A stretch of 35,182 nucleotides of DNA from Acidobacteriota bacterium (lineage in GTDB: Bacteria; Acidobacteriota; Terriglobia; Bryobacterales; Bryobacteraceae). The stretch covers positions 1 to 35,182 of the forward strand of contig JANXRE010000014.1 in the NCBI GenBank assembly GCA_025353165.1, read 5' to 3'. The notes below the pieces were generated by a model. That model was given only the letters and a program-made list of their open reading frames with translations, had not been told where the DNA came from and made no database searches. Positions 19,248 through 26,028 of this stretch are shown here, piece by piece (positions within the stretch are counted from its first letter, which is position 1; each line of letters starts with the position of its first letter). A program made the translations under genes and the position numbers.

Positions 19248-19272
19248 CCTCGCGCCGATCCTTTCTTTTGAT

Positions 19273-19293
19273 TCGTCAGAAAAATCCGTGGGT
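19273..19293. repeat. left terminal inverted repeat of the ISL3 element
   Basis: Reads TCGTCAGAAAAATCC then GTGGGT inward. It matches the complement of 20978-20998 at 16 of 21 positions and 25435-25455 of the second copy at about 17 of 21. It overlaps the last codons and stop of the transposase. Confidence 0.75.
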
Positions 19294-20525
19294 GAGTTCC
19301 GGTTCAGGCAGCTTGCCAAGTGAATGATATAGGGCCAGTTCGGCGACTGGGAAGGATCGAAACCCGTAGGATTTTCTCATGGTGACTTTTGCTTTGTTGT
19401 TCAGGCCCTCGATGACACCGCTGGAAAACTCTTTCCGAGCGCGAAAATAGTTGAGGATGAGATCGCGGTGGGCGCGTAAAGTTCTGGCGACTTTCTTCAT
19501 CGGCTCGATCCGGGACCGCATCACTTGGCGACACCATTGGTCGAGGAATTTGGTGGCCCATGCGGTGGAACCGTAATTCCCGAGTTGCTGGAAGTCTTCC
19601 TTGAGGAGATAGGCGCGAACGCTCTGGAGGTTATAGCGCACCAGATCTTTCAGTTTCACTTCTGGTTGGCGGTGAGGTTTGCGGGGCGTTTGAGGAGGCA
19701 CCAGCGAGACTTCGTCAGGATCGGTTCGTATCCGTCGCCCTTCATTCGCCTGGCTTCTGCAGCGCGGATGTCGTCGAGCGCCTTGTTCACCTTGGCGACA
19801 ATGTGGAACCGTTCAAGGATGTTGAGCGCTTGGGAGCACTTTTCGCGAATCACGCCCAGGTAGGGTTTCCACATGTCCGAGCAGACGAACTCGATCTTCG
19901 CCGATACTTCTGGGCCGATCATGGCAAAGAACTCCCGGAAGGTCTTCACCGTCCGTTCTTTTCCAATCCACAGCAGCCGTGTACAGCCCAGGTCGATCTG
20001 ATAAACCAAGGTCAGATATTTGTGCCCTTTGCCATACTGAATCTCATCCACGCCGATGGCGCGAATCGCTCCCAGGACGCGATGTTCCAGCCCCCAGGCG
20101 ACCAGATAGGCCACCGCGTCATGCACCTTGTCCCAGGAGGTGCGGAACTCTTCGGCGGTTTCTTTCCAGGATAGTTTGCGCGCCCAATACCCCAGGAAAT
20201 GTATGTAGACCTTGGTCGAGGAGTGTTTGCCGGTGCCCCACGGCACTTCTTCGACCACGACCCCGCATTGCCTGCAGTTGACCCGCCGCATGCAATAGAC
20301 CAGAAAAACCAAATAGCCTCAGAATCCGATGAACTCAAACCGCCGAGGCGTGGGAGACTGGTCGTAGCCCGGCGTCGGTTGATGACAACCCGAGCAAATG
20401 GCCATGGATCGTTTCCGCGGCCGGACCGGGATGAGGATGGATTGCTCCTCTTCGGCGAAGCTGGCTCGCCCATGCACAAATCCCGGGATGGGATGGCACT
20501 GATTCAGAATTCTGGGAAGGCGCAT
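19276..20525 (-). pseudogene. ISL3-family transposase with a nonsense and a frameshift mutation
   Basis: The gene starts at ATG 20525 (M-R-L-P-R-I-L-N-Q-C-H) and would encode about 416 residues. An N-terminal zinc-ribbon region has C-S-G-C and C-R-Q-C pairs. It is followed by a helix-turn-helix around S-W-K-E-T-A-E-E-F-R-T-S-W-D-K-V. The DDE core has Asp in G-V-D-E-I-Q, Asp in V-C-S-D-M-W-K-P-Y and Glu in G-V-I-E-G-L-N-N-K. Codon 69 is TGA (20319-20321) where the family has Trp. A second lesion at about 19660-19670, best explained by one A lost after N-Q-K, shifts the frame before V-K-L-K-D-L-V. The gene cannot make full-length protein. Its end E-L-T-H-G-F-F lies in the terminal repeat. Confidence 0.9.
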
Positions 20526-20549
20526 GAGTTGAGTGGGATCGATACAAAG

Positions 20550-20966
20550 ATGAAGACGAATCTCGATTCTCCCCCATCGACGCCCGCCGCGCTATTGCCC
20601 TACTGCCGCGATTGCCGCGACCTTCAGGAGTGGCCGGAGCGTTGGATGGGCGAGGAAAAAGATCTTCCGGTAGGGAGAAGACTCGTCGCATCCTTCATGC
20701 CCTTCCTCCTTCACCTCACCGAATCCGGCCTGTCGAAAAGAACCATCCAAAATCACGTCGACAATATGTGGCTACTCGGCGGAGAGATCATCCGTGATGT
20801 GAACGAAGACCCTTCTCTGAGCAAGGTAGCGGCGGAAAAGCTCATCGGCAACGTGATCCACCAGGACGGCGGACCGCTGATCCACAACGGCTGGGAAGAC
20901 GAGCAACGCTCCTTCGATTCCACCTGCCGGAAGTTCCACCGTTTCCACACTCAGCCCCAGCGCTGA
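20550..20966 (+). CDS. Conserved small protein, putative passenger of the ISL3 element
   Basis: A 138-residue protein of a family I do not recognise by function. It has an L-P-Y-C-R-D-C-R-D-L-Q-E-W-P-E-R-W motif (about 16-32). Next is a helical part, L-T-E-S-G-L-S-K-R-T-I-Q-N-H-V-D-N-M-W, that resembles the SAM-like core-binding domain of tyrosine recombinases. It ends R-S-F-D-S-T-C-R-K-F-H-R-F. There is no catalytic recombinase domain, no signal peptide and no membrane helix. The gene is inside the terminal repeats, divergent from the transposase, and a second degraded copy occurs at 25467 in the same arrangement. A DNA-binding accessory role is inference only. The open frame extends upstream, but ATG 20550 matches the start of homology. 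Confidence 0.7.
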   Translation: MKTNLDSPPSTPAALLPYCRDCRDLQEWPERWMGEEKDLPVGRRLVASFMPFLLHLTESGLSKRTIQNHVDNMWLLGGEIIRDVNEDPSLSKVAAEKLIGNVIHQDGGPLIHNGWEDEQRSFDSTCRKFHRFHTQPQR

Positions 20967-20977
20967 GGACCCCAGTT

Positions 20978-20998
20978 ACCCACAGATTCCCCAGACGA
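20978..20998. repeat. right terminal inverted repeat of the ISL3 element
   Basis: Its complement reads TCGTCTGGGGAATCT then GTGGGT inward, which pairs with 19273-19293. It starts 11 bp after the passenger stop codon, so the passenger is inside the element. Confidence 0.75.
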
Positions 20999-20999
20999 G

Positions 21000-23042
21000 C
21001 TATATTTCTTGTTGCACTGCCAGCGTACTCCCACCTTTCGGGGGCTGCCTCTGCATCCCCTCATAGCGCCGTTCGATCGCGGCAAACCCCGCAAGCGCCA
21101 GCATCGTCACACCGCTCAACAGCGCGCCGAGCGCGAAGCGAATCGAGCGATACCGGAACGTCAACTCGTGCGCGCCCGCCGGCACGATCACTCCGCTCAG
21201 CGCATAGTCGGCCGGTTGCACCAGCAGCTCTTTCCCGTCCACCATCGCGCGCCAACCCGGAAAGTACGGGACGGCAATGCGGAGGAGGCACTCCGCCGGA
21301 GCGCTGTACCGGACGCGATAGAAGTCGCCTTCGTAGTTGACGACCTGAATCCGCGTCATGCCGGGCGACAGTCCCCGGGCGGGCCCTTCGACCACCGCCG
21401 TTTGCGCCGGATCGAGCGTGTCCAGCATTCGTTTTGCAGAATTCGAATCCGGAACGAAGACCACGTGCGGCGGCGCGGATATGCGAGGAAGGGCGTCGGG
21501 ATTCGCCAGGATGGCCCCGCGCTGGGCGTCGATTTTGTGTGTGACCGCGAGACCGTTCAGCAGGCGCGGGTTCGCCTCGGCGGCGCTCATGTATGCGGAA
21601 TAGCGGCTCAATTCGAGGGGATTGTAGCCGTAAGTGACTTCGGTCCTCGAATCGAGCGCGCTGTTTAGGGGCCCCATGGAATTGATCACGAACGGCGACC
21701 AGATGCGGTAGGGCGCTGGCCCCTGGATCGGAACGATCGCGGCCTGAAAACGGTCGTACGCGTTGCCATAGCGTTCCTCGAAGCTCGCGCGGCTGTACGC
21801 CAGCGGGTTCGCCGACATGTTGAAGTGCCACAGATCTATCGCGCTTAACAAAATGAGGACAGCGACGATCCACGGCTGCCGGGTGCGCTCGCGGATCCAA
21901 AGTGCGCCCTGCGCCGCCGCGAGCGCCAGCCCCAGCGAGACGACAAACCAGATATGCACCGGCGCGCGGACACTGGCGAATCCGGGGAGCAGCGTCAGCA
22001 GCGAGTACAGTCCCTTGCCCGGGCCCAGTGCGTACCACAACGGCAGCAGGATCAGCACGAGCGGAATCTCCCACCGCTTTCGCCGCATCGCCGACGCGAT
22101 CGCCAGCGGGATCAACAGCAGCCCACCATAGAAGTAAAACTGCGTGATGTCTTGCGGACCGCGGTATGCGCCCGAGATCGCTCCATATTGATCGGGCCGG
22201 ATCAGGGTGACCATGTTCTCGGGCGAGAGCGCCGCGTTTGTAGCGTTCCGGTAGTTGGTCTCCGCGCGAATCGACTGAGCCGTCAATTCCAGGCCTGGCA
22301 GAGTCTGAATCGCGCTCACCAGCACAGCGATCGCCGGAATCGCGACCGCCACCGTGAGCGACCGCTTCCAGTTGGCCCGGCGCGCGATCAGAAACAGCAA
22401 TAAGGCGAGGAACGCATACAGCGCGGTTTGAAAGTGACCCGCCAGGATTACCAGGCCGCCCACGAAACCGCCCAGGAGCACCGCTCGGCCGTGGCGTGCC
22501 TCGAGGGCCCGGTCGGCGGCCCACAACAGCCAGGGCGCCAGCGCCGCGGTCTCGAACATGCCGAGATGCGAGCTGTGGCTCGAGAAAAATCCGCCGCCGG
22601 CATAAAGAACACCCGCAAGGATGGCGCAGCCCGGATGTCCCGTCAGGCGCCGCGCCAGCAGGTATGCGCCCCCCAGCGCCAGAAACGCGTGCAGAGCCAG
22701 TTCCCACTCGATGGCTTTCGGTGTGATACCGATCAGGAAGAATGGCCAATGCAACGGATACCAGCCCGCAGTCTGCGGGTCCGCCAGGAAGGGCATCCCC
22801 GAATACTCAAACGGTGTCCAGTATGGGAGGCGAAGCGATCGGAGCGATTGCGCGAAATAGTTTTGGGCGGAGTAGTGGACATCCGCCGCGTCCCACTGGA
22901 TACTCGCGGCGGGATCGAACAGGGGAGTCCAGTAGTAGATCAGCGTCGCGACGAGCAGGGCCGGCCAGAGCATCTTCGCCCACGGGAAGGCGGGTGTCGG
23001 CGGAAGAGCGGCCGCCGGCCGCTTGGCTGGTTTTTTCTTCAT
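21000..23042 (-). CDS. YfhO-family polytopic membrane protein
   Basis: A 680-residue protein with about 12 transmembrane segments in residues ~20-440, followed by a ~200-residue extracytoplasmic part and two more helices near the C-terminus. Family hallmarks are D-A-A-D-V-H-Y near the first loop, P-Y-W-T-P-F-E-Y-S-G-M-P-F-L-A-D-P-Q, and the distal F-P-G-W-R-A-M-V-D-G-K-E block. YfhO proteins are GT-C-like and are implicated in glycosylation of lipoteichoic or surface glycolipids; the donor here is unknown. Start 23042 (M-K-K-K-P-A-K-R) is chosen for its positively charged N-terminus; ATG 23081 would add 13 residues. The mobile element ends 1 bp past its stop codon. It diverges from the NlpC/P60 gene. 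Confidence 0.85.
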   Translation of the reverse strand: MKKKPAKRPAAALPPTPAFPWAKMLWPALLVATLIYYWTPLFDPAASIQWDAADVHYSAQNYFAQSLRSLRLPYWTPFEYSGMPFLADPQTAGWYPLHWPFFLIGITPKAIEWELALHAFLALGGAYLLARRLTGHPGCAILAGVLYAGGGFFSSHSSHLGMFETAALAPWLLWAADRALEARHGRAVLLGGFVGGLVILAGHFQTALYAFLALLLFLIARRANWKRSLTVAVAIPAIAVLVSAIQTLPGLELTAQSIRAETNYRNATNAALSPENMVTLIRPDQYGAISGAYRGPQDITQFYFYGGLLLIPLAIASAMRRKRWEIPLVLILLPLWYALGPGKGLYSLLTLLPGFASVRAPVHIWFVVSLGLALAAAQGALWIRERTRQPWIVAVLILLSAIDLWHFNMSANPLAYSRASFEERYGNAYDRFQAAIVPIQGPAPYRIWSPFVINSMGPLNSALDSRTEVTYGYNPLELSRYSAYMSAAEANPRLLNGLAVTHKIDAQRGAILANPDALPRISAPPHVVFVPDSNSAKRMLDTLDPAQTAVVEGPARGLSPGMTRIQVVNYEGDFYRVRYSAPAECLLRIAVPYFPGWRAMVDGKELLVQPADYALSGVIVPAGAHELTFRYRSIRFALGALLSGVTMLALAGFAAIERRYEGMQRQPPKGGSTLAVQQEI

Positions 23043-25420: not shown

Positions 25421-25434
25421 CAAAAACAAAAGGC

Positions 25435-25455
25435 TCGTCAGAAGAACCTGTGGCT
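25435..25455. repeat. surviving terminal repeat of the deleted ISL3 copy
   Basis: Reads TCGTCAGAAGAACCTGTGGC then T. It matches the left repeat at 19273-19293 at about 17 of 21 positions and lies just outside the passenger remnant, as in the intact copy. Confidence 0.7.
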
Positions 25456-25466
25456 AACTAAGAGTC

Positions 25467-25815
25467 TCAGGGCTTGGTCTGAGTGAGGAAACGGTAGAAC
25501 TTCCGACAGGTGGAGTCGAAGGATCGCTGCGCGTCTTCCCAGCCGTTTTGGATCAGCGGGCCGCCATCCTCGGGGATTACGTTTCGAACAAGTTGTTCGG
25601 CGGCGAGTTTTCTGAGCGGATAATCTCTCCACCGAGCACCCACATATTGTCGACGTGGGACAGCCCGGACGCGACGAGGTGAAGGAGGAAGGGCGTGAAG
25701 AACTTAACCAGTCTTCTCCCTGGCGGAAGATCTTTTTTCTCGCCCATCCAACGCTCTGGCCACTCCTGAAGATCGCGGCAATCCCGGCAGTAGGGCAATA
25801 GCGCGGGTGGCGGCG
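25467..25815 (-). pseudogene. Remnant of the ISL3 passenger gene
   Basis: Homologous to the 138-residue protein at 20550. L-P-Y-C-R-D-C-R-D-L-Q-E-W-P-E-R-W is intact near 25798. After S-G-L-S an 18-bp loss removes K-R-T-I-Q-N. About 23 bp are then lost after G-G-E-I-I-R, which shifts the frame. The rest (L-A-A-E-Q-L-V-R-N-V-I-P-E-D-G-G-P-L-I, then R-S-F-D-S-T-C-R-K-F-Y-R-F) continues in the next frame to a stop at 25467-25469. The first ~10 codons are replaced by the transposase junction. Not expected to be functional. Confidence 0.8.
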
Positions 25816-26028
25816 ACGATCGAATTCGTCTGCTCGGATAGGTGGAATCCCTACCTGCGGATCATTCGCGAAGAGTGTTCCCGGGCGCTCGACGACATCC
25901 GCTCCGCCCAAGCCCGGCGCACGAAGCGAGACGGATACGAACCGGTCCTGACGAAGTCTTGCTGGCGCCTGCTGAAACGATTGGCAAACCTCACCGCAAA
26001 TCAGAAGGGTGAAGCTGAAATCAAGGTC
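25807..26028 (+). pseudogene. Internal fragment of ISL3 transposase, fused to higA remnant
   Basis: Encodes I-E-F-V-C-S-D-R-W-N-P-Y-L through N-L-T-A-N-Q-K, matching the middle of the transposase at 19276-20525, including its second catalytic Asp. Sixteen residues between C-S-x-A-L and D-D-I-R are missing; in the longer copy that segment is bounded by GCGCTC direct repeats 48 bp apart. The first and third catalytic residues are absent. The frame continues without a stop into the higA-like remnant. Confidence 0.85.

Follow-up and report, generated by a model that had tools for sequence, protein, structure and literature searches.

The window (the whole stretch of DNA analysed here, 35,182 nucleotides) comes from an assembly of 5.77 Mb and 200 contigs, in which it is contig C163. 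It contains an ISL3 transposon with two genes; the copy is old, but the frame of its passenger gene (hereafter P) is still open. The element spans 1732 bp (19270-21001; the ends were set by comparison with other copies), and its left terminal repeat (IRL; 19270-19293, + strand) matches the right one (IRR; 20978-21001, - strand) at 16 out of 24 positions. The original prediction, made from the sequence alone, had set the ends at 19273 and 20998: the repeats are present there (19273-19293 and 20978-20998, with 16 of 21 positions identical as read from the sequence) and both genes are enclosed, but comparison with other copies moves the outer base of each arm 3 bp further out, to 19270 and 21001. 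The two end sequences in the window (GATTCGTC and AGCTCGTC) have diverged.

Two genes lie between these ends, whereas a single ORF is usual for the ISL3 family, though it does not strictly define it. The transposase gene, tnp (19276-20525, - strand), is broken into three open pieces (20525-20319, 20312-19656 and 19701-19276) by an in-frame stop near 20319 and a frameshift between about 19656 and 19701. The second and third pieces match the Pfam family DDE_Tnp_ISL3 (PF01610; 5.9e-36 and 1.7e-30, respectively), so the predicted ISL3 assignment stands, but the damage to the gene had gone unnoticed; uninterrupted tnp frames exist in four other loci (L008, L112, L037 and L039). P (20550-20966, + strand) has 138 codons, and its standing as a gene is backed by relatives and by dN/dS values (see below). 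Its length, the 24 bp that separate the divergent starts (20525 on the - strand and 20550 on the + strand) and the 11 bp from its stop to the right repeat were all read correctly in the original prediction.

The 8-mers flanking the element mismatch at four of eight positions, so the window copy shows no target duplication; since its tnp is broken and no duplication is visible, we regard this copy as old. Another copy, decayed and in the opposite orientation, occupies about 25432-26007 (- strand), with a right end at about 25432, a P remnant at 25816-25473 (- strand) and a tnp fragment at 25807-26007 (+ strand); this fragment is an internal part of tnp and adjoins the P remnant. The right ends of the two copies thus face each other, with 4.4 kb of other genes between them.

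The terminal repeat is absent from the repeat-finder list for the window and therefore cannot by itself prove an element; the proof comes from other genomes. In Paraburkholderia aromaticivorans BN5, two plasmids have in common a block of 1709 identical bp that includes tnp and P (their annotated starts overlap by 2 bp). A search of plasmid records gives seven full-length copies on three plasmids of this strain, six of them identical (1709 bp) and one of 1708 bp; five out of seven are flanked by exact 8-bp target duplications, and the element ends are GGTTCGTC and GGCTCGTC. An Acidobacteriota unit of 1731 bp (L112) has the exact duplication AAAAAGAA, and a unit of 1741 bp (L010 and L116, one element present in two collections) has the exact duplication ACTTTCCG. 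In genome G004, six right ends have the P C-terminus and the repeat in common, and diverge directly past GACGAGGC. The terminal repeats are about 24 bp long and start with GG (GA, GC or AG in some copies), and the 8-bp target duplications are mostly AT-rich. The duplication check covered 20 rows, 11 of which had no scorable end pair; mismatches (out of eight) are one for L038, two for L078, four for the window and for L039, five for L069 (whose scored right end is a poor repeat) and six for L008.

None of the units with exact duplications has an end located between tnp and P; such an end had been named in advance as evidence against a shared element. The unit of tnp and P transposes as a whole, and P is part of the element, as originally proposed. 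A different view, in which the ISL3 element has tnp only and P next to it is a gene of the host or an open frame arisen by chance, would fit the imperfect repeat and the absent target duplication in the window, and also the single gene typical of ISL3 elements. We find this scarcely credible: the multi-copy units refute it, exact duplications and identical blocks surround both genes, and the dN/dS values of P are between 0.11 and 0.23.

A search with the window P protein (P0001) found matches in eight of 61 relatives and in two of 396 genomes of a phylum sample (its own genome is included in both counts), and a profile (A1) found P matches in at least 36 out of 237 genomes of the family (mostly draft assemblies, with no more than 17 candidates scored in each). 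Scanning a genome-contig collection with one P protein gave four P relatives, all in Terriglobia MAGs, and the host of the window is therefore probably a soil bacterium of the Acidobacteriota. No P relative was found in a phage collection (one P query), and viral-contig scans with P and with tnp gave no relatives. Among plasmids, 1,151 records have a match to the ISL3 transposase and five of them reach at least 60% identity to the query; these are exactly the five records, out of 72,556, that hold P.

P is mostly found beside an ISL3 transposase. We collected 59 P copies across 56 loci (51 from places matched by profile A1, plus L086, L008, L037, L038 and L039), leaving out many C-terminal P pieces at contig edges (e.g. 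most of those in G004, G563, G565 and G010). In 34 copies the N-terminal part of P is present together with 200 bp or more of upstream sequence; for 25 of these an ISL3 tnp in divergent orientation (sometimes a mere fragment) is no more than 300 bp away, so the outcome that would have spoken against the prediction, P lying mostly apart from ISL3 transposases, was not seen. The other nine comprise L067, where what is left of tnp has the expected position but scores weakly (E 0.02), seven fragments or rearrangements (L074, L080, L083, L084, L100, L102 and L108), and L086. The last (contig C73 of G062) belongs to another Acidobacteriota family, and its P homologue is intact (41% identity to P); neither an ISL3 tnp in 14 kb nor a recognisable end pair was found there, and this gene may have been freed from an element or adopted by the host. 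Many truncated P copies are still ended by the right repeat. Seen from the transposase, a clear P lies within 900 bp at eight of 30 tnp loci, among the family matches listed. The two genes remain together in both Acidobacteriota and Burkholderiales. At the start of contig C79 of G002 (L028), a P right end is immediately followed by a C-terminal piece of tnp of equal strand, which looks like a junction of two element ends.

P is under purifying selection: dN/dS is 0.11-0.23 for ten of 11 P pairs (the remaining pair is saturated). It has no significant match in Pfam, NCBIfam, PHROGs or PADLOC. The original prediction had seen in P a likeness to the core-binding domain of tyrosine recombinases without the catalytic part. 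In favour of this, hhalign of 14 P sequences against three integrase domains (PF02899) of the same genome gives a probability of 93.9 (score 44.6), whereas shuffling the columns of either side 200 times gave scores of at most 21.5 and 18.2, and a reversed domain gave 9.2. But the same three integrases taken as single sequences rank 1, 2 and 4 among 35 proteins with probabilities of only 12, 10 and 1%, and neither Pfam nor PDB gives significance: Phage_int_SAM_1 is matched by two of the 14 members (best 0.14), on a par with the unrelated DUF934 (0.13) and HTH_36 (0.15), and in a PDB sequence search Cre (E 0.67) ranks below TRIM75 (0.2) and PaaC (0.55). The predicted fold was modelled too: AlphaFold, with five close sequences, returns an all-helical model too weak to use (pLDDT 60.4), with which Foldseek finds nothing below E 1.5. 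No Pfam match to the catalytic domain of tyrosine recombinases is found in the 138 aa of P. The similarity of P to the SAM-like core-binding domain is one of profiles; P differs from the integrases in having no catalytic domain and from PF02899 members in its single-sequence score (0.14 at best in Pfam). The profile comparison, as a single test, lends moderate support to reading P as a distant, solo domain of the core-binding type.

If so, P would be a small DNA-binding protein that binds the region of the back-to-back starts, or the element ends, and modulates the transposase, through autoregulation or in an architectural role. The close or overlapping starts leave little room for separate promoters between tnp and P. 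A two-gene ISL3 transposon in which P has such a DNA-binding, transposase-modulating function, and in which its place is exchangeable, is the reading we prefer, and we would give it about an even chance; the function assigned to P is an inference. Weighing against this reading are the intact P homologue with no ISL3 match nearby (L086), the low share of tnp loci with a clear P (eight of 30), the distance between the P proteins of L111 and L112, and the low support of some deep tree nodes (see below for the last two).

The exchangeable place is seen in relatives without P. Several Acidobacteriota transposases from loci lacking P are 83-87% identical to that of L112, and in the P-less relatives a short stretch to the right of the tnp start resembles the 5' region of P (by eye), after which the sequences diverge from one another. 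In L211 (the same locus as L121) a remnant of P residues 4-39 is detected within a cargo element (tblastn 0.001). Of 17 loci with long flanks, 13 have a right repeat on the side of the cargo, at a distance of 0.7-5.4 kb; the other four (L204, L214, L215 and L216) have no right end on that side and were excluded from duplication scoring. One of the 13 (L212) bears P and the 12 others lack it. Exact 8-bp duplications flank eight of these 12 (L202, L203, L205, L206, L207, L209, L210 and L218); L217, L208 and L211 have three, four and six mismatches, and for L213 the left end was not found. A further 20 right-end loci, many of them cut by contig ends, yielded one exact duplication (L270); L269 has one mismatch and two others have six and seven, the remaining 16 being without a scorable left end. 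In total, nine cargo elements have exact duplications. For the 6003-bp element L202, the empty site with uninterrupted flanks is found in genomes G624 and G628. A plain one-gene ISL3 sister group had also been considered for these loci and was dropped, as the searches for right repeats and duplications put the cargo inside the ends. The right flank of G553:C264 (ATAAAATC) equals the left flank of G553:C621, and the two are probably one element split over contigs.

The cargo is diverse. A PadR regulator with a MacB/FtsX permease is found in L202 (together with a HAD protein) and in L203, MacB/FtsX in L217, a protein of the metallo-beta-lactamase-fold superfamily in L205, an M1 peptidase in L206, a nucleoside hydrolase and IS21-type istA/istB in L209, an ankyrin protein in L218, an amidohydrolase in L270, a sigma factor and DUF3738 in L208, an ECF sigma factor and a protein kinase in L211, and PadR and DUF3738 in L213; no domains were found for L207 and L210. 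At a threshold of 1e-5 no nucleotide similarity was found among the cargo interiors of 12 elements. L203, a 4748-bp element with an exact 8-bp duplication, is in the window's own genome (locus G000:C113:3000-21530); in G645:C133 (L261) there is a right end that agrees with that of L203 in both flank (GAAAATCA) and border.

Because relatives carry other genes there, the place of the passenger is not fixed. We suggest that the stretch from the tnp start to the right repeat acts as a slot, occupied by P by default and by unrelated host genes in derived copies; jointly with the accessory role of P, this is as probable as stated above.

Passengers as such are not new. Typical members of the ISL3 family carry tnp only, as the original prediction had stated. 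Six ISs with tnp only, ISL3 among them, appear in one paper (PMC6305408), but passenger-bearing ISL3 elements are also known: the same paper describes ISPst2a/b (2985 bp, with an ArsR regulator and a permease, and 8-bp direct repeats), another describes ISPpu12a (3372 bp, with a predicted CzcD; PMC4447125), and a third describes a DEH element between two ISPpu12 copies, with tnpA, lspA, czcD and cueR named in a figure legend (PMC12060670). IS copies with passengers unrelated to transposition are called transporter ISs (tIS; PMC3129680). The elements described here share with the ISL3 family the DDE_Tnp_ISL3 transposase, the inverted repeats of about 24 bp and the 8-bp target duplications; they differ from it in that the P clade adds a divergent P, in place of which derived copies carry cargo from the host. 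Like ISPst2 and ISPpu12 they are ISL3 elements with passenger genes inside. However, the passengers of ISPst2 and ISPpu12 are recognisable regulator, resistance or transport genes while P belongs to an orphan family, and in the P clade the segments at the two ends recur while the cargo enclosed by them varies from copy to copy. The sister copies with cargo agree with the tIS concept; P also lies inside the ends but may be related to transposition.

P may be ordinary cargo itself, selfish or of benefit to the host (e.g. an antitoxin, defence or stability gene), one passenger among many. The unrelated genes that fill the slot in relatives, the known ISL3 elements with passengers and a weak match to BrxA in PADLOC (0.039, for one of 14 P members) are consistent with this. 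But only P recurs with tnp across phyla, in the same place and orientation, whereas the other cargo that we examined varies by copy, and P could not be placed with significance in any family of Pfam, NCBIfam, PHROGs or PADLOC; we consider the cargo explanation unlikely. Slightly easier to entertain, if still doubtful, is that P is no regulator but takes a direct part in transposition, as a co-factor that works with the transposase in assembly or targeting; cargo copies would then move with the P of another element in their cell. The two genes are together in two phyla, and three of the nine genomes with exact-duplication cargo elements (G000, G455 and G573) also hold a P match. No P match is found in the other six (G631, G567, G023, G034, G646 and G506, searched with profile A1 at no more than 17 candidates per genome, mostly drafts), and yet their elements have transposed; P may have been lost later or missed. 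P is therefore probably dispensable for movement. The same is suggested for the preferred modulator role, in which P is probably not strictly required, as several tnp sub-lineages have other DNA in its place and have still transposed.

A FastTree phylogeny of 37 tnp rows (L089 is labelled as P-bearing though its P is broken, and L204 as cargo-bearing from its border and a split contig) places P-bearing elements, those of Burkholderiales included, on both main branches, and cargo-bearing ones at several places among them. For example, L213 is inside a clade (0.998) whose other members all bear P, L211 groups with L069 and L078 (0.969), and L207 and L210 group with L089 (0.929); there is also one cargo-only clade (0.97 for seven). 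The separation of the clade with P and cargo from the outgroup has a support of only 0.42, and some deep nodes are low. The simplest reading of this tree is that P was ancestral and has been replaced several times. P may itself be swapped, or evolve fast: in L111 and L112 the transposases are close (91% identical) and the P proteins far apart (61%), with a synonymous divergence (pS) of 0.43 in tnp and 0.69 in P.

The cargo is bordered by inverted CGRTAAACGCT motifs. The recurring forms are CGATAAACGCT on the left and, inverted, CGGTAAACGCT on the right; one of two motif forms is exact in seven of eight left rows and nine of 15 right rows, and the others vary (rows were chosen by a motif expression, which two further right ends and the left border of L270 do not match; L261 was left out as the same insertion as L203). 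The right segment (148-bp query; some matches are partial) is found in 31 out of 237 family genomes. The slot thus appears to have inverted borders, and a mechanism of capture is conjectural. One conjecture is that these ISL3 elements are modular carriers, with a recurring left segment (tnp and about 85 bp) and a right segment (about 150 bp), between which cargo would be swapped as cassettes at the inverted CGRTAAACGCT motifs; P, as a solo protein of the core-binding type, would be the ancestral occupant, perhaps a relic or co-factor of the exchange machinery. We hold this to be improbable.

A description of P or of the exchange slot was not found in the open-licence papers searched and, as far as the searches reached, both P and the recurrently replaced slot are new. 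To our knowledge, no conserved partner gene of this kind has been described for the ISL3 family; if P does modulate the transposase, this large IS family would have a family of accessory genes that is as yet uncharacterised. From the sister copies with cargo it is seen that simple elements of the IS type move varied chromosomal genes in Acidobacteriota (regulator and permease pairs, hydrolases, peptidases, and sigma factor and kinase genes), a route of transfer that could easily be overlooked in annotation. With cargo borders that recur, the way in which an IS swaps its load can be tested directly.

The outgroup transposases (L139-L143, about 47-52% identity) were found without a clear P, and no coding cargo was recognised at outgroup loci. 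No right end was found for L274; L275 has an end-like match only, 397 bp from the tnp start, and in L276 an exact 8-mer pair points to a candidate right end at 360 bp, where the repeat matches at 13 of 20 positions. Folding of the left cargo border gives z values of 0.5 and 0.8 for two C-clade queries and -2.3 for L139. About 83 bp to the right of the tnp start are kept in the outgroup loci L139-L142; in L139 this stretch ends in a pair of 15-bp hairpin arms, and the arms of L140 and L142 also pair, with changes on both sides (by eye).
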